Translations under genes and position numbers: made by a program
Notes under the pieces: generated by a model
What the model was told of the DNA's origin: nothing
Database searches by the model: none
Seen by the model: only the letters and a program-made list of their open reading frames with translations
Source: Peptoniphilus pacaensis
GTDB taxonomy: Bacteria; Bacillota; Clostridia; Tissierellales; Peptoniphilaceae
Length of the DNA stretch: 64,000 nucleotides
Assembly: GCF_900088125.1 (NCBI RefSeq)
Contig: NZ_FLQT01000003.1
Location: 310,001-374,000 of the forward strand
Direction: 5' to 3'
In this document: positions 1,181-43,910 of the stretch, piece after piece
Layout: the number at the start of each line of letters is the position of its first letter
Position numbering within the stretch: the stretch's first letter is position 1

Positions 1181-2530
1181 TTGTCCAATAAATTTGATTA
1201 TATCGTCATCGGCGGCGGCAGCGGCGGCAGCGCCACGGCCAATCGGGCGGCGCAATACGGCGCCAAGGTCGCCATTGTGGAAGAAAAAGATTACGGCGGC
1301 ACCTGCGTGAACCGGGGCTGCGTGCCGAAAAAAATCCTCTGGTACGCCTCGGGCATTCGCCGTACCCTGGAAAAGGAATCGGGCAATTACGGCTACAAGG
1401 TCGGCGACTGGGATTTTGATTTTAAAAAATTGCGGGAATCTCAAATGGGCTATGTAAGCCGTGCACGAAACAGTTTCGAATCGGGCCTGGAAAACAACGG
1501 CGTCGCCAAGCTCTTCGGCAAGGCCCGGTTTAAAGACGCTCACACCGTCGTCGTGGGCGGCGAAGAATATACCGCCGATCACATAACCATCGCCACCGGC
1601 GCCCACCCGAACCCCTGCAAGCTTCCCGGGGCGGAGCTGGTGGACTATTCCGACGATTTCTTTACATGGGACGAGCTGCCCAAAACCATCGCCATTATCG
1701 GCGGCGGCTACATCGGCACGGAGCTTTCCGGATTTTTGGCCGGCATGGGCGTGGAAACCCATCTTCTCGTAAGAAAAAATCGAATCCTCAGAAAATTCGA
1801 TCCTTTTATTACCGACGCCGTCACGGAAGAGCTGGAAAAGGGCGGCGTGAACATCCACTTCGAAACCTCGTCGAAAAGCTTTAAAAAAGTGGAGGGCGGC
1901 ATCGAAATCACCTTCCAAGACGACAGCACCGCCGTCTTTGAAAAAGTCCTTTGGGTGGCCGGCGTCACGCCGAACATCGAAGGCCTGGGCCTGGAAAACA
2001 CCAAGGTGGAAGTGGACGAGAAAGGCCGCATCGTAAGCGACGCCTATGAATGCACGGCGGAAGAGGGAATTTACGCCATCGGCGATGTGACGGGCAAATT
2101 GGATCTGACCCCCGTGGCCATCGCCGCCGGCCGCCGCCTCTCCGATCGCCTCTTCGGAGGAAAGAAAGACGCCCACATGGATTACGCTAATGTACCCACC
2201 GTGGTCTTCAGCCACCCGCCTTTGGGCACCGTGGGCCTCACGGCAAAGGCCGCGAAGGAAAAATACGGCGAGGACGCCATTAAGACCTACACCTCGTCTT
2301 TCACCGACATGCGCTCCTCCGTATCGGGTCACCCCCAACAATGTAAAATGCTTCTCGTCTGCGCAGGCGATGAGGAAAAAATCGTCGGCGCCCATGCCAT
2401 GGGCTACGGCGTAGACGAAATGATGCAAGGCTTCGGCGTCGCCGTAAAAATGGGCGCCACCAAGGCCGACTTCGACGCCACCGTGGCCATTCACCCCACC
2501 AGCGCCGAGGAAATGGTCACGATGCGCTAA
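1181..2530 (+). CDS. gor: Glutathione-disulfide reductase family flavoprotein
   Basis: A 449-residue pyridine nucleotide-disulfide oxidoreductase. The FAD site GGGSGG is at residues 11-16. The redox-active pair sits in [13 protein letters not shown] (Cys42, Cys47). The NADPH-binding [11 protein letters not shown] stretch is near residue 175, the second FAD motif YAIGDVTG is near residue 300, and the catalytic His-Glu region HPTSAEE is at 438-444. Length and the [10 protein letters not shown] signature favour glutathione reductase over lipoamide or mercuric reductase. Trypanothione-like thiols cannot be excluded. The TTG start follows AAAGGAG. Its 3' end occurs twice more in the window, at 5961-6064 and 10388-10492, as non-functional copies. 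Confidence 0.88.
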
Positions 2531-2540
2531 CTCGTCAAAC

Positions 2541-2583
2541 AAAAACATGGAGAAAGGACGCTTCCTCTCTCCATGTTTTTTAT
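2541..2583. terminator. Bidirectional terminator between gor and the ABC operon
   Basis: A long inverted repeat, AACATGGAGA.. paired with ..CTCTCCATGTT, is flanked by an A tract on the left and a T tract on the right. It can end both gor (+) and the convergent minus-strand operon, whose last stop codon it touches. Confidence 0.85.
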
Positions 2584-3125
2584 TTATTGTTTTTTAAAAT
2601 ATCATCTAAATCCATTTTTATACAACTAATGGTTTCTTTTTTATGAATATCAAGACCGGGACTAACGAAGACGTATAGGTCCCTCGGGCGATTGTGCTCA
2701 CGAAGAAATTGAATCATATCTTTTTCTATGTGTAAAACAAGATCGAATGTGGCGGTATCTCCCTTTATATCGTAGGGATCAGAAAAATAACACATGCCGA
2801 TGTACTGATCGTAAAGCTTAAAACGATAGGCCGTTGCCAAATCGCTTACGTTGGTTTGTACTGTCATCTTAATCAGCACGTTTTCATTTGGATCCAGCCC
2901 GCTATCTTCTAAATACTTGGCGTCCTGCGTTGGCTCGCAGTTTAGTAAAGTGAAAAACTTTCCTTCCCCTAAATCTACGGATTCGCCAATTTTGTGCATG
3001 GTGTAAATGGAATTCTCTTTTGGCACATTGACGGGTAAATTGATGTAGACGATCCGTACTACAGCCGAAAGTGCAAGCAGGAGCAGGGCAATTTTTATTC
3101 CTTTGGCACTATTCTTCTTCCCCAT
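2580..3125 (-). CDS. Membrane-anchored extracytoplasmic protein of the ABC operon, unknown function
   Basis: 181 residues with one N-terminal hydrophobic segment (about 11-30) after a positively charged start, then a soluble domain that should face outside. The segment has no lipobox cysteine, so it is an uncleaved anchor or an ordinary signal. The soluble part has a beta-rich, DUF4352-like feel (LIKMTVQTNVSDLATAYRFKLY), but I cannot assign a family. Its start overlaps the end of the ATPase gene by 17 bases, which suggests translational coupling and a job tied to the transporter. Confidence 0.6.
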   Translation of the reverse strand: MGKKNSAKGIKIALLLLALSAVVRIVYINLPVNVPKENSIYTMHKIGESVDLGEGKFFTLLNCEPTQDAKYLEDSGLDPNENVLIKMTVQTNVSDLATAYRFKLYDQYIGMCYFSDPYDIKGDTATFDLVLHIEKDMIQFLREHNRPRDLYVFVSPGLDIHKKETISCIKMDLDDILKNNK

Positions 3126-3747
3126 ACAATCTCCCTTCGCTCATTTTAAAACGCATGTCACACAGTTGACGCAAGTCTTCCTTCTTGTGGGATACCACGA
3201 CCACCGTTCGCCCCGCCCTCTTTAATTCACTTAAAAGGGCGTAAAGGCGTTCCACGGAATCTTCATCCAAAGCATTGGTCGGCTCGTCCAGCAAAACAAG
3301 CGGCTGCTTCTCCATAAGGGCTTGAACGATGGCAAGTTTTTGGTTCATCCCCAAGGAATAGGTGTTTACTTCGTTGTCTATGTAATGATCCATGTCGAAG
3401 TAATCAATTAGCCTTTTTGTCTCGCTGTCATCAAAAGGGCCACGAACCTCTCCTAATAGACGGAGGTTCTCCCAACCCGCCAAATTTCCGTAAAAGTCTA
3501 CTTTTTCGATAACGACACCAATGTTGATACCCGGTGCTTTGCCGTAGACGCGCTTCTCCCCATTCACGAAAATGACACCCGAATCCACGTCCATCAGTCC
3601 GGCGATAGCACGCAAGAGCATGGTTTTTCCTGACCCGTTTACACCGTAAATTCCGTAGATTTTTCCCCGCTCCAGCTCCAGAGAAATATTCTCTAAAATA
3701 ATCTTCCCTTTGATTCTTTTACTGACATTTTGTAACGATACGATCAT
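3109..3747 (-). CDS. ABC transporter ATP-binding protein
   Basis: A 212-residue single ABC domain. Walker A is GVNGSGKT near residue 36, the signature is weakened to YSLGMNQK near 130, Walker B is VLLDEPTNALD near 155, and the switch histidine is in VVVSHK near 188. It lies 9 bases after the second permease gene. With the two ABC-2-like membrane proteins upstream it should form one transporter. Small ATPases with a SLGM-type signature are common in bacteriocin-immunity and peptide exporters of Firmicutes. The substrate is not visible. Confidence 0.8.
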   Translation of the reverse strand: MIVSLQNVSKRIKGKIILENISLELERGKIYGIYGVNGSGKTMLLRAIAGLMDVDSGVIFVNGEKRVYGKAPGINIGVVIEKVDFYGNLAGWENLRLLGEVRGPFDDSETKRLIDYFDMDHYIDNEVNTYSLGMNQKLAIVQALMEKQPLVLLDEPTNALDEDSVERLYALLSELKRAGRTVVVVSHKKEDLRQLCDMRFKMSEGRLYGEEE

Positions 3748-3756
3748 AGGTCTCTC

Positions 3757-4470
3757 CTAATCCAAAAAATCTATCTTCTTCACCCGCAGACTCACAAGAA
3801 AAGAAAGCATCCCAATGGCAAATAACAATCCGCAGCTTTTTATCGTTGTGTAGGTCATCGCCCCACCCGGTATAAGTAAAAATTTCAATAAATAAAATTG
3901 ATGATAATTGTAAGTAAACAGCCCGACAACGCGGGTTAATACCGAGGTACGATAGCTGTTAAAGGTAAAGAAAGTCAAGACGAAAATCGTGCCTAAAAAT
4001 TCGTTTCTCACCCATACGTTAAACAAACAGCCCAACAAGCCGATAGCCGAAAGACTCAAAATCAATTGCACCGCCAGCATCAACCCGAAGAGAGCAGCGG
4101 AAACATAATGTCCGTTAAAAAAGCCCTGCACATAGCCCGCTACCATAAAAAGAAGGACGGATGTGACGCTCACAAGAAACGCCGGCAAGAAAATTTTCAA
4201 AAGATGATACTGCAAAATCACGCACCGACTCTTGTAGCGAACCGCTGTCAAAATGTTGTATTCATAAGCGAGAAAAAGGCTACTTACCAAAAAGAAAGTC
4301 CCTATCTCTCCTGCTACTTTCTTATAGTCTTCCAATGCGTAGAGACCGCCACCTTCAAAATCGGTAAAAAACTGCCGCCCTAAAAAAGCCACGAAGATCA
4401 GGTAGATAGCCATTAAGAAGATCTTATTCCCTCTACCGTTTCGCCGCAATTCATTAAATGCTGTCTTCAC
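3757..4470 (-). CDS. ABC-2-like membrane protein, transporter subunit
   Basis: 237 residues with about six hydrophobic segments, starting from a short cytoplasmic N-terminus (MKTAFNELRRNGRGNK). It is placed directly before the ATPase and overlaps the preceding membrane-protein gene by 17 bases. Size and topology fit an ABC-2 type permease half. There is no clear family motif, so the assignment rests mostly on context. Confidence 0.6.
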   Translation of the reverse strand: MKTAFNELRRNGRGNKIFLMAIYLIFVAFLGRQFFTDFEGGGLYALEDYKKVAGEIGTFFLVSSLFLAYEYNILTAVRYKSRCVILQYHLLKIFLPAFLVSVTSVLLFMVAGYVQGFFNGHYVSAALFGLMLAVQLILSLSAIGLLGCLFNVWVRNEFLGTIFVLTFFTFNSYRTSVLTRVVGLFTYNYHQFYLLKFLLIPGGAMTYTTIKSCGLLFAIGMLSFLVSLRVKKIDFLD

Positions 4471-5230
4471 GATTCCGACTCCTTATGAAAAGTAGGCAAA
4501 CAGGTATGGAGAGACACAGAAAAATCAAGCTGAAAATAAAAGTTTGTTCCGTCATATAGACTGTAGGAAAAAACATAGAGATACTGTAAATTTTATCTGC
4601 AAATCGCATATTTACAGTCCAGAGCAAGAAAAAAGCAGCAAAAGGAAGAATGTTTTCAAAATAACGCCTGCGACTGACCATGCTTACGGCGAGGGTCAGG
4701 AGAGAAAAGAAAGTACACCAGAGCGCATACAAGAAATAAAACAGCAGATTAATCACATAGGGATTGGACGTATAGAGAAACCCACTACGATAGCTTATGG
4801 CGTGAAAATAAATATCCTGAGCATAACGAAAGGGATAGACGAGAGCCATTAGCAGGTCGTGAAAAACGAGGGGGAAGAGCCCGGTCAGAACACCCAAAAT
4901 GACGGTGACCGCAACAGTATTTTTTATGTATGATTTTCTGCCCATGCGACTGATCAATATGCTGTCCATGTTTTTTCTCCGATCATCGCTGTAGATGGCA
5001 GATGCCGTAAAGGGAGCGAAAAAAATCAAAAATGTATAGTATATGCTTGCCCCCACGCCGAAATAATTTAGAAGCATAAGATTGTTGGACAGATTGTCGT
5101 CGTATAGACCCTCATCACTCTTTGCTATAATTTGAATTGCGAATAAGACGGCAGTATATAAAAAGACAATGATAATACGCTTATCTTTTAAACAGCGAGA
5201 GAGTTGATTGTGTATGTACGATTTATTCAT
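4454..5230 (-). CDS. ABC-2-like membrane protein, first gene of the ABC operon
   Basis: 258 residues with about six membrane segments. A cytoplasmic start carries basic residues (SRCLKDKR), and the short loop DDRRKNMDSILISRMGRKSY after the second segment is the kind of coupling helix seen in ABC-2 permeases. A strong CGGAGGA site precedes the ATG at 5230. It is the first of four overlapping or nearly overlapping genes (5230 down to 2580). The secreted protein encoded 58 bases upstream may be the cargo or partner. Confidence 0.6.
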   Translation of the reverse strand: MNKSYIHNQLSRCLKDKRIIIVFLYTAVLFAIQIIAKSDEGLYDDNLSNNLMLLNYFGVGASIYYTFLIFFAPFTASAIYSDDRRKNMDSILISRMGRKSYIKNTVAVTVILGVLTGLFPLVFHDLLMALVYPFRYAQDIYFHAISYRSGFLYTSNPYVINLLFYFLYALWCTFFSLLTLAVSMVSRRRYFENILPFAAFFLLWTVNMRFADKIYSISMFFPTVYMTEQTFIFSLIFLCLSIPVCLLFIRSRNREDSI

Positions 5231-5288
5231 AAAATCCTCCGAAAAAAATTGCCAAATCCTTTGCCCTAATTAAATGTATTTAACCTTA

Positions 5289-5801
5289 CTAATATCCAGA
5301 GGTGTTATTTGGACTCCAAACGCCGGTGGCGGACATTTGACCCCCATTACCGCTTTCAACGGCTAATTTAATTATACTGCCAACCGGCGCATCATTACTC
5401 AAATATTTAATATCGCCGTTAGATACTCTGTATTTTCTACAATTGGTATTAGGAATCCAAATCCTGATTACCACGGAAAGTCTGCCACAGCTTTTCACGC
5501 GTACATAAGCTGCCGTTTTATTGGTCTTTTTTCGTGCCGTCGTATAGGAGTTCGTGCTGCCGGATCGTAATGTAAAACTCCATGCTGTATCTTTGGTATT
5601 CCCACCGGCCGCACGCGTATCATAAACCGGCGTCTCCGCTTTTACAAAATTATTTGAAACAAATGCTTCGCTAAACACTGCCGCTTGTGCCATATGAGGC
5701 ATCATCATTACACTAAGCAAGGCGACATAACCTAATTTTCTACCTGGTTTTCTTTCCCTTTTTACACCAACTCGCCACCACCCCACCTCTACAGTATTCA
5801 T
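5289..5801 (-). CDS. Small secreted protein, possible cargo of the adjacent ABC transporter
   Basis: About 170 residues. A basic stretch (KRERKPGRK) is followed by a hydrophobic core and a likely signal-peptidase site after PHMAQA, leaving about 126 mature residues rich in Ser, Thr, Asn and Gly. The mature part resembles small DUF2712/bacteriocin-like exoproteins in style (RKKTNKTAAYVRVKS), but I do not recognise a family with certainty. The start at 5801 (GGAG, 5-base spacing) is preferred, though in-frame starts exist further upstream. The neighbouring ABC operon suggests export or self-protection. This is inference. Confidence 0.5.
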   Translation of the reverse strand: MNTVEVGWWRVGVKRERKPGRKLGYVALLSVMMMPHMAQAAVFSEAFVSNNFVKAETPVYDTRAAGGNTKDTAWSFTLRSGSTNSYTTARKKTNKTAAYVRVKSCGRLSVVIRIWIPNTNCRKYRVSNGDIKYLSNDAPVGSIIKLAVESGNGGQMSATGVWSPNNTSGY

Positions 5802-35635: not shown

Positions 35636-36973
35636 TCAACGATTTTCCAAAAAGCGGATCCGCTCTTCCAGGGCGTATACCCGTTGTTCCAAGGCGGCGT
35701 AGCGCCTTTTCAGCTCGCGGATGTCCGCCTCTTCGTCGTAGGCTTCCGCGGCCGGCGCCGTTTCCGCCCTGGCTTCCGCTTGGGCTTCGTCCATGCGCTC
35801 CTTGGCATAGCGCTTGGCCTTGGACAGCGTCTCCCGGGCTCCCTCGCCCACTCGTTGCAGACGCTCTCTGGCGGCTTCTTTCGCCTGATCCATGGCCATG
35901 TTGGCGGCGATCTGCGCTTCTCTCGCGTCTTCATCCGCCCCTTCCATGCTCTCTTCTAGGTTGTGGCGCATTTCCTTGGCTTCTTCTTGGAAACGGTCGA
36001 TGCGCTCCTTGGCCTCTTGACTGTAAAATTCCGAGAGGCGATCTTCCTCTTCTTTCAGCAAGACGTCGATATCTTTCAGCCGCGTCTTGGCCGTGGCGAG
36101 GAAGCCGTCGCTTCGGTCTTTTAATTCCACGCCGGTCCGCGCCAGGGCGGCGTCGACGACGGAAAAGAGCACTTCGTCCCGCGACATGCCCCGCATCTTT
36201 GCGGCGGCCATAAAGGCGCCTTCTGCTGAAAGATCGGGGAAGGCCCACGCGTCCACCACATAGGCGGTGTTATCTGCCACTTCCATATCGAAATAAGCCA
36301 TATCTCTGAATTGAAAGAGCGTAAACACTTTTTTCGTCAGAGAAATGACTGCCGCCGCTTCTTCCCCTGTGAGATCCTCGTCACAAGCCGGCAGGATTTT
36401 CATATCGTCGCCGTTTCCTATGACGGCCACGTGGACTTTCTTACCCGTCAGAGGCTCACGCACGTAGATAACCGGTGCCGCTTCCAACAGAGCCCTGGCT
36501 TTTTCGTAGAGGGCCTCTTCGTCTTCCACGAAGACCGCTTCATCGGCCGCCGCCAGGATCAAGGGATACTCGGCGTCGATCTTCGCCAGATCCACCACGC
36601 TGGATGCCATATAGACCCGCCGATAAGGCAGGCCCTGTTGCTTCAAAATACCCGCGGCCAAGATGGGGTCTTCGCCGATGCCCAGGCCCATAACCCCGGC
36701 GCCGACGAAAGGAATGCCTTCGCCGGTCAACAGGGATGCCAGGGACTTCCTTTCGTCTCTATCTTTCACCAGAGGAAAGACCAAGTCGATCTTGTCCCAT
36801 TTTAATTTCGCGATTAGGGATTCGTGGATCACGTATTGTGCCACGTCGGCTTTTTTATTTAAGACCGCCGTCAAATCGTCGGCTTCTTTTCGCCGGGCGA
36901 GCACCGCTTCCCTGCGGTCCGCCTTGTTTTTTTCCTGATTGTTTAACAGATCGATAGTAATTCCGATTCCCAT
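35636..36973 (-). CDS. D-Ala-D-Ala-ligase-like (ATP-grasp) pseudoenzyme with C-terminal coiled coil
   Basis: 445 residues. Residues about 55-280 follow the Ddl/ATP-grasp plan: DLVFPLVKDRDERKSLASLL, GIPFVGAGVMG, VYVREPLTGKKVHVAVIGNG, and YVVDAWAFPDLSAEG where ligases have an EVNT(M/L)PG loop. The Mg-binding Glu/Asn and the usual ATP-binding Lys (FVKP) are replaced, so catalysis looks lost. Residues 295-430 are a long Glu/Ala/Arg coiled coil like apolipoprotein repeats. It starts 43 bases after carB with no terminator between, so it may ride on the pyrimidine operon. Role unknown; a scaffold or sensor is possible. Confidence 0.55.
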   Translation of the reverse strand: MGIGITIDLLNNQEKNKADRREAVLARRKEADDLTAVLNKKADVAQYVIHESLIAKLKWDKIDLVFPLVKDRDERKSLASLLTGEGIPFVGAGVMGLGIGEDPILAAGILKQQGLPYRRVYMASSVVDLAKIDAEYPLILAAADEAVFVEDEEALYEKARALLEAAPVIYVREPLTGKKVHVAVIGNGDDMKILPACDEDLTGEEAAAVISLTKKVFTLFQFRDMAYFDMEVADNTAYVVDAWAFPDLSAEGAFMAAAKMRGMSRDEVLFSVVDAALARTGVELKDRSDGFLATAKTRLKDIDVLLKEEEDRLSEFYSQEAKERIDRFQEEAKEMRHNLEESMEGADEDAREAQIAANMAMDQAKEAARERLQRVGEGARETLSKAKRYAKERMDEAQAEARAETAPAAEAYDEEADIRELKRRYAALEQRVYALEERIRFLENR

Positions 36974-37016: not shown

Positions 37017-40000
37017 TCAATCGTTGTTGTAGTCGCCGATTTCGTAAATGGTCACCGCGTCTTTCAGAGGATTGTTCTTCAGGGTTTGGGCGTAGACCTT
37101 GGCCTTGTCCAAATTGGTGAAGAGTTCCACGTCGCATTCGATGGCGTTTCGACGAATCAAGAAGCCGTCCCGCTTGGAGTCGTTGCCCTTGGTGGGGGTG
37201 TTGAAGACGAGGTCGATCTCCCCTTCTTGGATCAGGTCGATCATCGTAGGCGCTTCTTCGCCGATGCGGCGCACTTCCTCGGCGTCGATGCCGTTTTTAT
37301 TTAAGAAGGCCTTGGTGCCCTTGGTGGCGTAGAAGGTGACGCCGTCTTCCGCCAGAGATTTGGCGATGGGCAAGAATTCCTCTTTGTCGCGGTCGCGAAT
37401 GGTGCAGAGGGCGCGGCGGCTCTTGGGCGCGATGTCCGTGCCGGCGGCCAAAAAGCCCTTGGCCATGGCCTCTTCTTCCGTGCGGCCCACGCCTAAGACT
37501 TCGCCGGTGGAGCGCATTTCGGGCCCGAGGGACGCTTCTACCCGGTGGAGTTTTTCCGTACTGAAGACGGGGATCTTCACGCAGGTGGTGGGAGAGACGG
37601 GGCCGATGCCCGTGCCGTAGCCCATGGATTTTAAGCTTTCGCCGAGCATGACCTTCGTGGCGATTTCCGTAATGTTCATGCCAGTGACCTTGGAGAGGTA
37701 GGGCACGGTGCGGGAGCTTCTCGGGTTCACTTCGATCATGTAGAGGGTGTCGTCTTTAATGATGAACTGAATATTGATCATGCCGTTGACGCCCAGCTCC
37801 AGGGCCACTTTCTTCGTGGCATCTAAAATGGCCTCGTCCATTTTCTCGGAAATGTTGCGGCTGGGATAGATGCTGATGGAGTCGCCGCTGTGGACCCCTG
37901 CCCGCTCCAAGTGTTCCATAATCCCCGGCAGGAAGACGTCGGTGCCGTCGCAGATGGCGTCCACTTCACATTCCATGCCTTGAATGTATTGGTCGATTAA
38001 CACCGTGCGCTTGGGATCCATGGCGAAGGATTCTTCCAGGTAGTAGCGCAGATCCTCGTCGGCGGTACAAATTTCCATGCCTTGGCCGCCGAGGACGTAG
38101 GAGGGACGAACGAGAACGGGATAGCCTAAGCTTTCCGCCTTTTCCATGCCTTCTTCCACGCCGTGAACGCCCACGCCTTTCGGGCGCACGAGGTTCAGCT
38201 CTTCCAACATGGCGTCGAATTTTTCCCGGTCTTCCGCCCGGTCGATGGCCGTGGGATCCGTGCCTAAGATGGGGATGCCTTCTTCCTTAAAGACGCCTGC
38301 CAGCTTAATGGCGGTTTGGCCGCCGAACTGGAGGATGACCCCTTCCGGTTTTTCCTTCTCGATAATGTTTAATGTATCTTCCGCCGTCAGGGGCTCGAAG
38401 TAAAGTTTGTCGGAGATGTCGAAGTCCGTGGAGACGGTTTCGGGATTGTTGTTAATGATAATGGTTTCGTAGCCTTCCTTGCGCAGGGTTTTGACGCAGT
38501 GAACGGAGGCGTAGTCGAATTCCACCCCTTGGCCGATGCGAATGGGGCCGCTGCCGATGACGATAATGCGGCGCTTGTCCTCGTGGACCGGGGACTCGTC
38601 TTCCCCTTCGTAGAGGGAATAGAGGTAATTGGCCTTGGCATCTGCCAGGCCCCCTTGGGTGTCCACCTTTCTGTACTTGGCTTCGATGCCGAAGAGCTTT
38701 CTCAGCTCGCGGATGAATTTTTCGCTGACGTTTAAGCGATTGGCGATGATTTCGTCGCTGAAGCCCAGTCGCTTCATTTCGCGGAGCTTGTCTTCCGTCA
38801 GATCTTCCTTCTTCATGGCTTCCAGTTCCGCTTCCACGCCGACGATGCGCTTAATGATGCGGAGGAAATAAGCGTCCATCCCCGTTTCTCTGGATAGGCG
38901 GCTGATGTCGTAGCCCGTGTTTAAAAGGGCCGCCAGGTAGAAGAGGCGCTCGTCGTTGGGCCGCTTCACATTTTCCTTTAGTGTGGCGATGTCCATGGTT
39001 TTAAAGCGGGGGTGGAGCAGGCTGAAGGCGCCGATTTCCAAAGAGCGCAGGCCTTTTAACAGGGCCACTTCGAAGGTGGGGCCGATGGCCATGACTTCGC
39101 CGGTGGCCATCATCTTCGTGCCCAGATTGCGATCGGCGTTAAAGAATTTGTCGAAGGGCCACTTGGGAATCTTCACTACCACGTAGTCGATGGAGGGCTC
39201 GAAGGCCATGGAGCGGGTGCCGGTGATTTTGTTTTCGATTTCATCTAAGCCCAAGCCCAGGGCGATCTTTGCCGCCACCCTAGCGATGGGATAGCCCGTG
39301 GCTTTCGATGCCAGGGCCGATGAGCGGCTGACCCGGGGATTGATTTCGATGACGGCGTATTGCAGGCTGTTGGGTTCCACGGCGAACTGCACATTGCAGC
39401 CCCCTTCGATGCCCACGCCTTCGATAATGCGGAAGGCCGCTTCACGAAGCATGCCGTGTTCCAAATCCGTCAGGGTTTGGGTCGGTGCCACCACCATGGA
39501 GTCGCCGGTGTGAACGCCTACCGGGTCGATGTTTTCCATATTGCAGACGCAGATGCAACTGCCCTTGGAGTCGCGGATCACTTCGTATTCGATTTCTTTC
39601 CAGCCGGTGATGCATTTTTCGATTAAGACTTGGCCGACGCGGGAGAGATGGATCCCGGCGTGGGCGATGGTCTTGAGCTCCGCTTCCGTTTCGCAGATGC
39701 CGCCGCCGGTGCCGCCTAAGGTAAAGGCCGGGCGCACCACCACGGGATAGCCGATGATCTTTGCATAGGCCACGGCGTCGTCCACGCTTTCCACGGTTTT
39801 CGATTCGATAATGGGCTCGCCGATTTCTTCCATGAGTTGACGGAATTCTTCCCGGTCTTCGCCTTTCTTAATGGAGGGAATGGAGGTGCCGATAATTTCC
39901 ACGCCGTATTTTTCCAAGACGCCGGAGTCGTAGAGCTCGATGGAAAGGTTCAGGCCCGTTTGCCCGCCCATGCCGGCGATAAGGGCGTCGGGGCGTTCTC

Positions 40001-40238
40001 TCGCGATAATCTTTTCGATGACTTCCGCGTTCAAGGGTTCGATATAGACCTTGTCCGCCACTTCCCTGTCGGTCATAATGGTGGCCGGGTTGGAGTTGAC
40101 GAGGACGACTTCCACCCCTTCTTCACGAAGGGATTCGCAGGCTTGGGTGCCGGAGTAGTCGAATTCCGCCGCCTGACCGATGACGATGGGGCCGCTGCCG
40201 ATGACGAGTACTTTTTTAATATCTTTGTTGCGGGACAT
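37017..40238 (-). CDS. carB: Carbamoyl-phosphate synthase large subunit
   Basis: 1073 residues, full length. Two ATP-grasp halves, each beginning with a nucleotide-binding stretch ([20 protein letters not shown] at the start and [19 protein letters not shown] near 560), and a C-terminal MGS-like regulatory domain from about 935. It makes carbamoyl phosphate from bicarbonate, two ATP and ammonia delivered from CarA. Eight bases separate it from carA. All catalytic stretches look normal here, in contrast to CarA. Confidence 0.95.
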
Positions 40239-40246
40239 AATTCCTC

Positions 40247-41287
40247 CTAGGCTAATTCGCTGATGACGGACAGTTGTGCGCTTAACAGATCCCGAGCGCC
40301 GGGCAGGCCGAAGGGATCGAAGAGCACGCCGACGGCTTTGTTCTTTTCGTCTGTGAAGCCTTCCACCGTATCGTCGGCGACGTTTCTGTAGTCGATCTTC
40401 ACGGACTCGGGCAGGTGATCGATGCCGTATTCTCTGTTTTGGCTCGTCATATAGACCCGCTCCCCTTCTCCCTTCACGGGAATGGATGCGCCGGCGTGAG
40501 GCGAGGCGAGCTTTTCCAGATCGCCGCCTAAGGCCAGACCCAAGAACTGTGCCCCGAGGCCCATGCCGTAAATGGGAAGCTTGCCGATCATCTGTCCGAT
40601 GTCGTGTACCAGGTCCAGATAGTTGGCGGCGACGCCGGGGCCGGAGCTAAGGAATAAGAGATCCGGCTCGTCGTCTAAAATCGCTTCGTAATTGGTCATG
40701 GCGGGGTAGACGATGAGGCGGTAGCCCGCGTCGTTTAATGCTTCCAAGATACCGTCCTTGACGCCGAAGTCCCAAAGGGCGACGGTGGGGCCTTCCCCTT
40801 CGATTTCCGTGACCTCGATGGTGCTCACCTCTTCGATGGTGTTGGGATTTTGTTCGGCGAAGTATTCGTCCATTTCGGAAGGCGTCATGAGGCGATCGGT
40901 GATGACGCCTTTTTGCATGCCCGTTTCCTTTAAGTGGCGAATGAGCCCGCGGGTGTCCACATCTTCGATGCCCGCCACGTCGTAGTAGTTTAAGTAAGCC
41001 TTCAGATCCATTTCGCTGCGGAAGTTCGTGGCGTTTTCCATGGCGCGGCGGCAGATAAAGGCGGCGATCGTCGGTCCGTCGGACTGATTGTCTTCGAAAT
41101 TCATGCCGTAGCCCCCGACCAAGGGATAGGTAAAGAGTAAAATGCGATCTAAATTGGCGGGGTCGGTCATGACTTCTTCGTGGCCGATCATGGTACCGTG
41201 TACGGTAAAGCGGCCGCCCACTCTGCGCCGCTTGCCGCTGAACTGTTTGCCCGTAAAGACGGTGCCGTCTTCTAATTGAATATACAT
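40247..41287 (-). CDS. carA: Carbamoyl-phosphate synthase small subunit lacking glutaminase catalytic residues
   Basis: 346 residues with the CarA N-terminal domain ([12 protein letters not shown] at 52-63) and a class I glutamine amidotransferase fold (FLSSGPG at 212-218). The nucleophile elbow, normally G-I-C-L-G-H-Q, reads GMGLGAQ at 241-247, so Cys is Gly243. The His-Glu pair, normally F-H-P-E-A, reads FDPFG at 323-327. All three catalytic residues are gone while the fold is kept. The subunit should be unable to hydrolyse glutamine and may only stabilise CarB, leaving the synthase ammonia-dependent as in animal CPS I. Confidence 0.9.
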
Positions 41288-41297
41288 AGTCGCTCCT

Positions 41298-42194
41298 TTA
41301 AATCATCCCGCGAATCTCGTCCAGGGATCCGATGTTCTCTTCTTCCATATATGTTTCTAAATCGGCGATGAGCCGGGGCACGATGTGGGGCTCCACTAAA
41401 TTCATGGTGCCGATTTCCACGGCACGGGCCCCCACCATAATCATGGCGATGACATCTTCCGCCGATTGAATGCCGCCCATGCCCACGACGGGAATCTTCA
41501 CCGCCCGGGCGGTGTCCCGCACCATTCTCAGGGCGATGGGAAAGATCCCGGGCCCGGAAAGGCCGGCGTAGACATTGTCGAAAACGGCGCGGCGATTTTT
41601 TACATCCACGGCCATGGCCTGGAAGGTGTTTACCAGACTGATGCCGTCGGCTCCCGACGCTTCGCAGGCCTTGGCCAGCTCCGCCGGATTATCGCCGTTG
41701 GGAGAAAGCTTCACCACGATTTTGTGGCGGCTCACTTCCTTGACCTTGGCCGTAATGGCCGCCGCATCCTGACAGTGCAGGCCGAAGGCCATGCCCCCCG
41801 ATGCCACATTGGGACAGGAAATGTTCAGCTCGATCATATCGATGTCCGCCTCGTTTAACATTTCCGCGGCGATTAAGTAATCCTCCACGCTGTGGCCGCC
41901 GAGATTGGCGAGGATCACCGTGTCGATCTTTCGCATCTCGGGCAAGATTTCCTTAATGAAATGCTCCACGCCGGGGTTCTCGAGACCGATGGAGTTCATC
42001 ATCCCCGAAGGCGTTTCGTAAACCCGCCGCCCCGTGTTGCCCGGCCGAGGATTGAGGGTCAGCCCCTTGGATGAAATACCGCCGATGATGGCCGGATCGT
42101 AAAAGGGGGCGTATTCCTCGCCGAAGCCGTAGGTGCCCGAGGCGCCGATCAACGGGTTCTTCATGGTGTTGCCTAAAAGCTCCGTCTTAAGCAT
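41298..42194 (-). CDS. pyrD: Dihydroorotate dehydrogenase B, catalytic subunit
   Basis: 298 residues, class 1B enzyme: FMN barrel with NISCPNVASGG near 130 (Cys base), KLSPNGDN near 165, and GMGGIQSAEDVIAM near 240. It oxidises dihydroorotate with NAD through PyrK. The ATG at 42194 is preferred because GGGAGGTCC lies before it; a longer frame would run further into pyrK. It overlaps pyrK by 8 bases. Confidence 0.93.
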   Translation of the reverse strand: MLKTELLGNTMKNPLIGASGTYGFGEEYAPFYDPAIIGGISSKGLTLNPRPGNTGRRVYETPSGMMNSIGLENPGVEHFIKEILPEMRKIDTVILANLGGHSVEDYLIAAEMLNEADIDMIELNISCPNVASGGMAFGLHCQDAAAITAKVKEVSRHKIVVKLSPNGDNPAELAKACEASGADGISLVNTFQAMAVDVKNRRAVFDNVYAGLSGPGIFPIALRMVRDTARAVKIPVVGMGGIQSAEDVIAMIMVGARAVEIGTMNLVEPHIVPRLIADLETYMEEENIGSLDEIRGMI

Positions 42195-42864
42195 AGATGG
42201 ACCTCCCTTCAAAGACCGGGCCGTCCTTGCAGACCCGCACCCGCCGGCCCTCTTTTTCGCAGGTACATGCCAAGCAGGCGCCGAAGCCGCAACCCATGTG
42301 TTTTTCCATGGAGACGTAGATTTTATTTTTCGCCCGCTTCACCGCTTCCCGCATCATGGGATCGGGACCGCAGGTGTAGATGACCTCGTCTGCGATTTCA
42401 AGCTCGTCGAAAATATTGGCGCCGAGGTAAAATTTCACCCGATCACCGTAGGGGGCGTAGATGGCCTGAAGGCCCTCGTTGGGCTCCCGCAGGCCGATGG
42501 CCACGGAGAGCTGATTGTTTCTGTCCCCTTCCAGCAAATGGAGGGAGGGGGCGATGCCGGTGCCGCCGCCGATAAAGAGGGTCTTCTCTTTTATTTCGGG
42601 AAAGCCGCGGCCGAAGGGCCCTTCCGCCACGATCTCTTCCCCGGGAAGCAGACGCGCCAGATCGTCGGTGCCGCCGCCGACTTTTTTTATAAGGAAAGAC
42701 AGGGCGCCGTCTTTTAAAGAGAAGACGGATATGGGCCTCCCCAAAAGCTTCGCCCGGTTCCGAGGCTTCACCATGAAAAATTGTCCCGGCGAGGCGTCCC
42801 CGTCGTAAGCCAGGGTGAGGACGAAGAGGCCGCCGCCCAAGTCCACATTACCGATTACCATCAT
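42187..42864 (-). CDS. pyrK: Dihydroorotate dehydrogenase B, electron-transfer subunit
   Basis: 225 residues. FAD domain with RPISVFS near 40, NAD domain GGGTGIAPSLHLL near 97, and a 2Fe-2S site at the end in GCGFGACLACTC and the later VCKDGPVF. Electrons pass from PyrD FMN through this subunit to NAD. GGAGG lies 7 bases before the ATG. The start overlaps pyrB by 17 bases. Confidence 0.93.
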   Translation of the reverse strand: MMVIGNVDLGGGLFVLTLAYDGDASPGQFFMVKPRNRAKLLGRPISVFSLKDGALSFLIKKVGGGTDDLARLLPGEEIVAEGPFGRGFPEIKEKTLFIGGGTGIAPSLHLLEGDRNNQLSVAIGLREPNEGLQAIYAPYGDRVKFYLGANIFDELEIADEVIYTCGPDPMMREAVKRAKNKIYVSMEKHMGCGFGACLACTCEKEGRRVRVCKDGPVFEGRSIYA

Positions 42865-43768
42865 TTTTTGCCTCCAGTAAGGTCAGGATCAGGGCCATGC
42901 GCATGTACATGCCGTTTTGCGCCTGCTCGAAGTAAAGGGCCCGGGGATCGCTGTCGATTTCAGGATCGATTTCGTCTACGCGAGGCAGGGGATGGAGCAC
43001 GATTAAATCCTCGGCCGCCGCTTCCAGCACCTCGGCGTTCAATAAGTAAGAGCCCTCGTAGCGCTTCGCCTCTTCTTCGCTGATGAAGCGTTCCTTTTGC
43101 ACTCGGGTCATGTAGAGCACGTCCAAGTCTCCGATGGCGGCCTTTAAATCGTCCACTTCCACATAGGGGCAGCGGGCGGTTTTTAAATATTCCTCGGGCA
43201 TGTTCAGGCCTTCGGGGGAAATAAAGACGAATTCATTGTCGTAGTGATTTAAAAACTGAAACAGGGAGTGAACGGCGCGGCCGAAGCGCAGGTCGCCGCA
43301 AAAGCCGATCTTTAAGCCCGACCATGCCTCCTTGTGCTTGCGAATGGTAAAAATATCCGCCAGGGTCTGCGTCGGGTGGGCGTGGTCGCCGTCGCCGGCA
43401 TTAATGAGGGGCATGTTCTCGAGGACGTCCACGGCCTTGTGCTGGGTGTAGGCACAGGGATGGCGCATGACGCAAATGTCCGCGTACTGATCCACGATGT
43501 GCAGAGTGTCCCGCTCGCTTTCCCCCTTGGCCAGACTGGATCCCTTGGCGTCGCCTAAGTGAAGCACCTGACCGCCTAAGCGGTACATGGCGGCGTCGAA
43601 GGACATGCGGGTTCTCGTGGAAGGCTCAAAAAAAAGACTGGCCAGGATCTTGCCGTCGCACGCGTGGGCGAAACGTCCGGGATCCGATGCAATTGCTTGC
43701 GCCAGTCTAAATAAATCGTCGTACTCTCTTTCTGTCATATCATCCGGTTCTATGAAATGTTTCAGCAT
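42848..43768 (-). CDS. pyrB: Aspartate carbamoyltransferase catalytic chain
   Basis: 306 residues. Carbamoyl-phosphate site FEPSTRTR near 53, SSLAKGES near 79, HPTQTLADI near 130 and HPLPRVDEI near 265. It condenses carbamoyl phosphate and aspartate. No regulatory chain gene (pyrI) is seen. The ATG at 43768 follows AGGAGG; a longer upstream frame would lie in the attenuator. First gene of pyrB-pyrK-pyrD-carA-carB. Confidence 0.94.
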   Translation of the reverse strand: MLKHFIEPDDMTEREYDDLFRLAQAIASDPGRFAHACDGKILASLFFEPSTRTRMSFDAAMYRLGGQVLHLGDAKGSSLAKGESERDTLHIVDQYADICVMRHPCAYTQHKAVDVLENMPLINAGDGDHAHPTQTLADIFTIRKHKEAWSGLKIGFCGDLRFGRAVHSLFQFLNHYDNEFVFISPEGLNMPEEYLKTARCPYVEVDDLKAAIGDLDVLYMTRVQKERFISEEEAKRYEGSYLLNAEVLEAAAEDLIVLHPLPRVDEIDPEIDSDPRALYFEQAQNGMYMRMALILTLLEAKNDGNR

Positions 43769-43910
43769 ATGGCCTCCTATAAAAAAAGCTTTTACACAGG
43801 TAAAAGGCACAAAGAGAGACCCGTCCCTGGGGACAGGTGTATTCTGTTTTGCGACCTTTTTAGTGTCTCGCACTAAATTAAAGTATCTTCGCTACAAATA
43901 GTCTACGCCC
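43769..43910 (-). promoter_or_regulatory. Leader of the pyr operon with attenuator-type terminator
   Basis: On the minus strand a 140-base leader contains CCTGTCCCCAGGGACGGG, the inverted pair GAGAC..GTCTC, and finally CTTTTAC-CTGT-GTAAAAG followed by T7 (43781-43808). The T run ends 4 bases before the pyrB RBS. A terminator in this place only makes sense as an attenuator. PyrR-type control is the usual mechanism in Firmicutes, but I could not place a clear PyrR-binding loop. Confidence 0.65.

Follow-up and report, generated by a model that had tools for sequence, protein, structure and literature searches.

The window analysed here is a stretch of 64,000 nucleotides from Peptoniphilus pacaensis, and it carries a pyrimidine operon with the gene order pyrB-pyrK-pyrD-carA-carB (Table 1). 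The carA gene encodes 346 amino acids from an ATG start with zero internal stops, and the plus strand of the same interval (40247-41287) has many stops. Only 8 bases separate it from carB on the same strand (carA end 40247, carB start 40238), the adjacency known from bacterial CarAB. CarA matches both the Pfam family CPSase_sm_chain (PF00988; 115 bits, cut-off 27) and class-I GATase (PF00117; 68 bits, cut-off 22.8). It also exceeds the cut-off of NF009475, carbamoyl phosphate synthase small subunit (272.6 vs 221), and falls below that of the NCBIfam model TIGR01368, the small subunit of glutamine-hydrolyzing carbamoyl phosphate synthase (CPS) (253.6 vs 307.35 bits). CarB scores 1463.9 bits against TIGR01369 (cut-off 1027) and has two ATP-grasp halves, as PF02786 and PF25596 match two stretches each; PF02787 and PF02142 are found as well, and the E. 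coli CarB alignment with this CarB spans residues 2-1066. Right after carB lies a 445-aa ORF (window 35636-36973, minus strand) whose only domain match, to the D-Ala-D-Ala ligase C-terminal domain, is sub-threshold; the ORF following carB at another locus (L144) is related to it (26% identity).

Table 1. Operon genes and CarA and CarB sites in the window (window positions)
Feature	Position	Strand	Basis
pyrB, aspartate carbamoyltransferase	42848..43873	-	start codon as mechanical ORF gives
pyrK, dihydroorotate dehydrogenase electron-transfer subunit	42187..42864	-	ORF and domain matches
pyrD, dihydroorotate dehydrogenase, upstream of carA	41298..42212	-	start codon as mechanical ORF gives
carA, carbamoyl-phosphate synthase small subunit, pseudo-glutaminase domain	40247..41287	-	ORF, translation, Pfam matches, replaced residues
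GMGLGAQ, aa 241-247 of CarA (E. coli GICLGHQ)	40547..40567	-	alignment to E. coli CarA
FDPFG, aa 323-327 of CarA (E. coli FHPEA)	40307..40321	-	alignment to E. coli CarA
carB, large subunit, 1073 aa, both ATP-grasp halves, oligomerisation and MGS-like domains	37017..40238	-	domain matches
CarB His261 codon	39456..39458	-	alignment

With its two subunits, adjacent carA and carB, all CarB domains and, by sequence, a CarA composed of the N-terminal domain and a class-I GATase domain, the system is like bacterial CarAB (CPS II; E. coli 1bxr, 1c30). It is unlike CarAB in the glutaminase site, where the Cys-His-Glu triad is replaced by Gly, Asp and Phe. The position of the E. coli nucleophile Cys269 is occupied by Gly243 (codon GGC, window 40559-40561), that of His272 by Ala246, and those of His353 and Glu355 by Asp324 and Phe326, respectively; apart from Cys-269 and His-353, the E. 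coli numbers are those that we take to apply to these site residues. Cys-269 and His-353 themselves are named in PMC6245113. With all four residues replaced, the enzyme is not expected to hydrolyse glutamine by the known thioester route. An earlier note on this DNA had described GMGLGAQ and FDPFG as standing in for G-x-C-L-G-H-Q and F-H-P-E-A in a CarA that is otherwise full length, in frame and placed between pyrD and carB, and both the alignment and the ORF and domain matches agree with that description.

We compared 161 CarA rows, four of which were dropped for an unreadable motif. His353 and Glu355 are conserved in 98% and 99%, respectively, of the 107 rows that keep the Cys, and they are kept in 10 and 25 of the 50 rows that lack it. 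Across the 51 conserved GATase columns as a whole, including the catalytic ones, these same 50 rows retain 70% of cells; hence the loss of the triad is more than the drift of loosely held columns. The residue at the Cys position of the Cys-less rows is Gly in 40 cases, Glu in three, Asp in three, Ala in two and Ser in two. Two loci, L184 and L244, keep the Cys and have His353 replaced (Gln in L184; Asn in L244, along with Ser at Glu355), possibly representing early steps of loss.

Seven other loci of the genus show the same loss in open frames, six of them from named species and the seventh from a metagenome assembly, which rules out a sequencing error. Genus, family, order and class in our genome searches are GTDB ranks, and we take the GTDB class of these genomes to be Clostridia. 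The nearest named loci belong to Aedoeadaptatus and Peptoniphilus species. Aedoeadaptatus is placed by NCBI in Bacillota, Tissierellia, Tissierellales, Peptoniphilaceae. Among the 130 genomes of the GTDB family, CarA was found in 18, all with Gly at the Cys position, and an alignment of CarA from relatives, as proposed in the earlier note, therefore gives a loss that is both genus-wide (8/8 genomes examined) and family-wide (18/18 CarA found). An intact CarA was found in none of the 130 family genomes, of which 108 are at least 90% complete.

CarB is present in 34 of the 130 family genomes, and 16 of these 34 (G018, G021 and G108-G121) have no PF00988 match. A CarA HMM run on the stretches around their carB genes gave zero matches, with 10 of 10 CarAs recovered in the positive control. 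Moreover, no match to pyrB, pyrK, pyrD or carA lies beside carB in the 15 of the 16 CarB-only genomes that yielded flanks; the contig of G118 holds little besides carB. At one such locus (L125, from the CarB-only genome G109), carB adjoins glycosyltransferase-like and O-antigen-ligase-like genes (4709-5791 and 2422-3795).

Cys-less CarA proteins also occur outside the family. In the rest of the order, three of the 42 readable CarA lack the Cys (L078 with Gly, L119 with Ala and L120 with Ser), and L119 and L120 have intact relatives within the same family. For the class, 391 genomes were searched and 262 had CarA; we read the 30 best loci and 70 weaker-scoring ones, the latter from 68 of 80 chosen genomes, so that neither the remaining 12 nor the genomes with middling scores contribute to the sample. 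The motif was unreadable at three of these 100 loci. In this sample, which is biased to weak scores, 29 of the 97 readable CarA are Cys-less (Gly 21, Glu 3, Asp 3, Ser 1, Ala 1). Every readable locus among the 30 with the best scores (29 loci) has the Cys, and 29 of the 68 readable weaker-scoring ones lack it; the class-wide share is hence lower than 29/97 would imply. A single CarA match is found in 27 of the 29 Cys-less class genomes. The two genomes G606 (L234/L264) and G561 (L237/L281) each have one Cys-less CarA and one with an intact triad, and perhaps possess two CPSs with different nitrogen donors. At seven loci (L252, L253, L254, L256, L257, L266 and L280; GTDB families f28, f62, f33 and f86) the C-terminus of CarB runs into a diaminopimelate-epimerase-like domain, so that the ORFs reach about 1350 aa; at L253 and L280 the domain was confirmed as PF01678.

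The CarB tree (61 rows: 34 with Cys-less CarA, 20 with intact CarA and 7 CarB-only) needs eight changes of state, seven of them forced by well supported branches, and this indicates that the CarA glutaminase was lost several times in the class. The differing replacement residues across lineages agree with repeated loss. The CarA tree, which is indicative and less reliable than the CarB tree, has 16 changes, nine of them forced. Some of the changes in the trees may be regains, and transfer between lineages is possible in principle. A single loss within the family was considered as well, and the CarB tree, built on the longer protein, rejects the CarA-accompanied CarBs of the family as one clade: in a test on 13 rows (our own clade and group B) the constraint costs 246 log-likelihood units under one model and 217 under another (AU p <0.001 each). 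For CarA, one family clade is not rejected (AU p 0.80); the unconstrained search had overlooked a solution better by 24 log-likelihood units.

Among known systems, the natural Cys to Gly change falls at the same position as the C269S and, reportedly, C269G mutants of E. coli CarA, but those are laboratory changes in an otherwise intact enzyme, whereas here the change is family-wide and the rest of the site is changed too. The C269S structure has been solved (1c30). Vertebrate CPS I (human CPS1; 5dot, 5dou), the urea-cycle enzyme and best-known case of such a shift to ammonia, likewise retains an inactive glutaminase-like domain in which the nucleophile Cys is replaced. The earlier note had invoked the Cys to Ser change of animal CPS I as a precedent, and PMC4655335 bears it out, stating that the Cys position of CPS1 is Ser and that glutamine is not used; it also states that CPS1 requires N-acetylglutamate. 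Unlike the two separate ORFs in the bacterial pyrimidine operon, CPS1 is a single chain, and more of the triad is lost here; we infer that the losses in CPS1 and CarA were independent. The small CPS of Methanobrevibacter smithii is described as lacking a glutaminase in PMC6022934, which would imply that it uses free ammonia. It is a 41 kDa protein forming a dimer of one synthetase unit, unlike the full-length, two-half CarB of the CarB-only group. The same paper presents bacterial CPS as the glutamine-using CPS II and sets ammonia-only CPS apart as animal CPS I. No report of a glutaminase-dead CarA in bacteria was found in text searches of an open-access collection that lacks most subscription papers; glutaminase loss is known in animal CPS I, and a glutaminase-dead CarA in bacteria appears to be new.

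Its sequence makes free ammonia the very probable nitrogen source of the enzyme, and we hold with good confidence that the locus encodes a CarAB-type CPS without glutamine hydrolysis, which would make carbamoyl phosphate for pyrimidines from free ammonia. The free-ammonia synthase was already proposed in the earlier note, and it is strengthened by the genus- and family-wide loss of the triad, the single carA and the lack of decay, with ammonia dependence itself still a prediction; the note further suggested that such an enzyme would suit an anaerobe that ferments amino acids. From free ammonia, bicarbonate and 2 ATP, CarB would form carboxyphosphate, take NH3 straight from solution and phosphorylate the carbamate as usual. 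The ammonia would perhaps come in by an alternative entry, as proposed for human CPS1; an entry for external ammonia separate from the old glutamine tunnel is put forward for CPS1 in PMC4655335, and E. coli variants with a blocked glutamine tunnel are described there as still active with external ammonia. CarA would stay as a structural or regulatory partner and not as a nitrogen donor, and its conservation suggests a structural or activating subunit. In the CarB-only lineage of the family, CarA would have been discarded altogether and hence be dispensable.

That the large subunit of E. coli can form carbamoyl phosphate from ammonia speaks for an ammonia-fed enzyme, but it takes very high concentrations (PMC6245113), and therefore either the cells would have to be ammonia-rich or CarB re-tuned. 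At physiological ammonia levels CarB might work too slowly if unmodified, and we found no change in it that would raise its affinity. Moreover, it is possible that a gene was missed in a genome that is 98.9% complete. A search of this whole genome for a second carA, as the earlier note had proposed, gave a single PF00988 match and none further, and a single CarB. Carbamate kinase has no match in the genome at this completeness, the one carbamoyltransferase match is PyrB, and PyrE is above its cut-off; this gene content probably leaves CarAB as the sole supplier of carbamoyl phosphate.

Three PF00117 matches are present in the genome, namely CarA, GuaA and PyrG. The Cys-His-Glu triads of GuaA (GICYGMQ, FHGE) and PyrG (GICLGMQ, FHPE) are complete, which makes it probable that other reactions in the cell use glutamine. 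A PF00120 match (glutamine-synthetase-like) sits some 2 kb ahead of the GATase match of PyrG, in a 723-aa frame whose size fits a type III glutamine synthetase. A shortage of glutamine was considered as the reason for the loss and set aside as unlikely, as the glutamine-synthetase-like gene and the intact triads of GuaA and PyrG speak against it. The enzyme could still be glutamine-driven if another glutaminase or amidotransferase supplied CarB with ammonia in trans, CarA acting as a docking platform. The retained and constrained CarA would fit such an arrangement, as would a genome that probably makes glutamine, but we regard it as improbable: within the PF00117 family the only matches besides CarA are GuaA and PyrG, both with synthase domains of their own, and the 16 CarB-only relatives do without any docking platform.

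Slightly less probable still is decay: CarA, or the CPS as a whole, would be a remnant, with carbamoyl phosphate coming from arginine breakdown or carbamate kinase, or made unnecessary by the uptake of pyrimidines. The family as a whole offers some ground for this, as CarB has no match in 96 of its 130 genomes, and strong carbamate-kinase matches (E <1e-60) occur in 92 of these, compared with two of the 34 genomes with CarB (Fisher p 1e-23). Similarly, two or more carbamoyltransferases are found in 88 of the 96 and in three of the 34 (Fisher p 3e-19), both p values ignoring kinship among the genomes. CarB and carbamate kinase are thus nearly mutually exclusive in the family. The members without a CPS may obtain carbamoyl phosphate from arginine via ornithine carbamoyltransferase, by analogy with Thermococcus kodakarensis, for which this route is reported in PMC13260591. 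Moreover, of the columns that intact CarA conserves, the CarA proteins of our own clade (n=14) retain only about 60%. However, the genome at hand has no carbamate-kinase match and only one carbamoyltransferase, its operon is intact, and both subunits have dN/dS far below 1 across the genus. In six comparisons with our own copy (some with dS >1), dN/dS is 0.06-0.21 for CarA and 0.05-0.34 for its GATase part; the CarA values resemble those of pyrD (0.06-0.19), pyrK (0.03-0.19) and pyrB (0.08-0.12), and CarB has 0.04-0.10. Conservation of CarB is near-complete: 234 positions do not vary among 20 partners of Cys-intact CarA, and at these the 38 CarBs accompanied by a Cys-less CarA retain 97.8% of cells and the 16 CarB-only ones 94.8%. 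The purifying selection indicated for CarA, together with the conserved CarB, argues that carA is not a decaying gene, and the signs of frameshift or decay that the earlier note had named as a possible objection are not seen, with open frames throughout the genus.

The least probable explanation is a remodelled glutaminase or other amide hydrolase with a new catalytic residue (e.g. a conserved Asp at 353), which the replacement pocket conserved in our own clade would favour (n=14: Ala272 13/14, Asp353 11/14, Gly356 12/14, Gly359 12/14, GPG loop 13/14), but the known nucleophile is absent and the varied replacements over lineages look like loss and not like one new chemistry. A structure model of CarA (8 sequences) is poor (mean pLDDT 53, residues 1-159 below 50), and no inference on the pocket was drawn from it; CarA structures ranked first in a PDB search with this model.

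We scanned 117 CarB columns within residues 1-289 whose conservation reaches 90% or more among partners of intact CarA, stopping at residue 289 since most loci hold the CarB start only; 10 of 143 loci were dropped for want of a usable CarB. Position 261 (a Tyr in E. coli) departs from the conserved residue in 12 of the 21 groups that have a Cys-less CarA or no CarA, and the next best column does so in four; L078 (G244, Val261) is in none of these 21 groups. Tyr261 is found in 78 of 85 CarB partners of Cys-intact CarA, so that seven of the 85 have another residue, versus 27 of 46 rows with Cys-less CarA (the other 19 retain Tyr261) and 16 of 16 CarB-only rows. Our CarB has His here and human CPS1 has Phe, a further likeness between the two. 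On strictly independent pairs (n=9) an average of 4.4 go the same way and none the opposite way, which is not significant (median p 0.125). The trend at this position, picked by the scan and non-significant on independent pairs, suggests a relaxed or changed coupling between CarA and CarB. A review (PMC6241538) names a C232-A252-A314 gate.

A wider reading seems possible to us and on balance doubtful: the switch to ammonia would have taken place repeatedly in one class, CarA would now be a non-catalytic part of an ammonia-fed enzyme, CarB would have been re-tuned in parallel at Tyr261, perhaps on a CarA-facing ammonia path, and CarA would finally have been dropped in one lineage. Under such a scheme CarA may, for instance, serve as an entry port or in regulation, having a conserved pocket of its own (FDP[FL]G in our own clade).

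Intact CarA, glutaminase-dead CarA and no CarA together form a natural series within one bacterial class, in which glutamine use has apparently been lost several times. The series makes it testable what CarA does beyond making ammonia, and how CarB gains a useful ammonia affinity. Such carA genes, if annotated as glutamine-hydrolysing, are misannotated, and this would affect metabolic models of nitrogen use.
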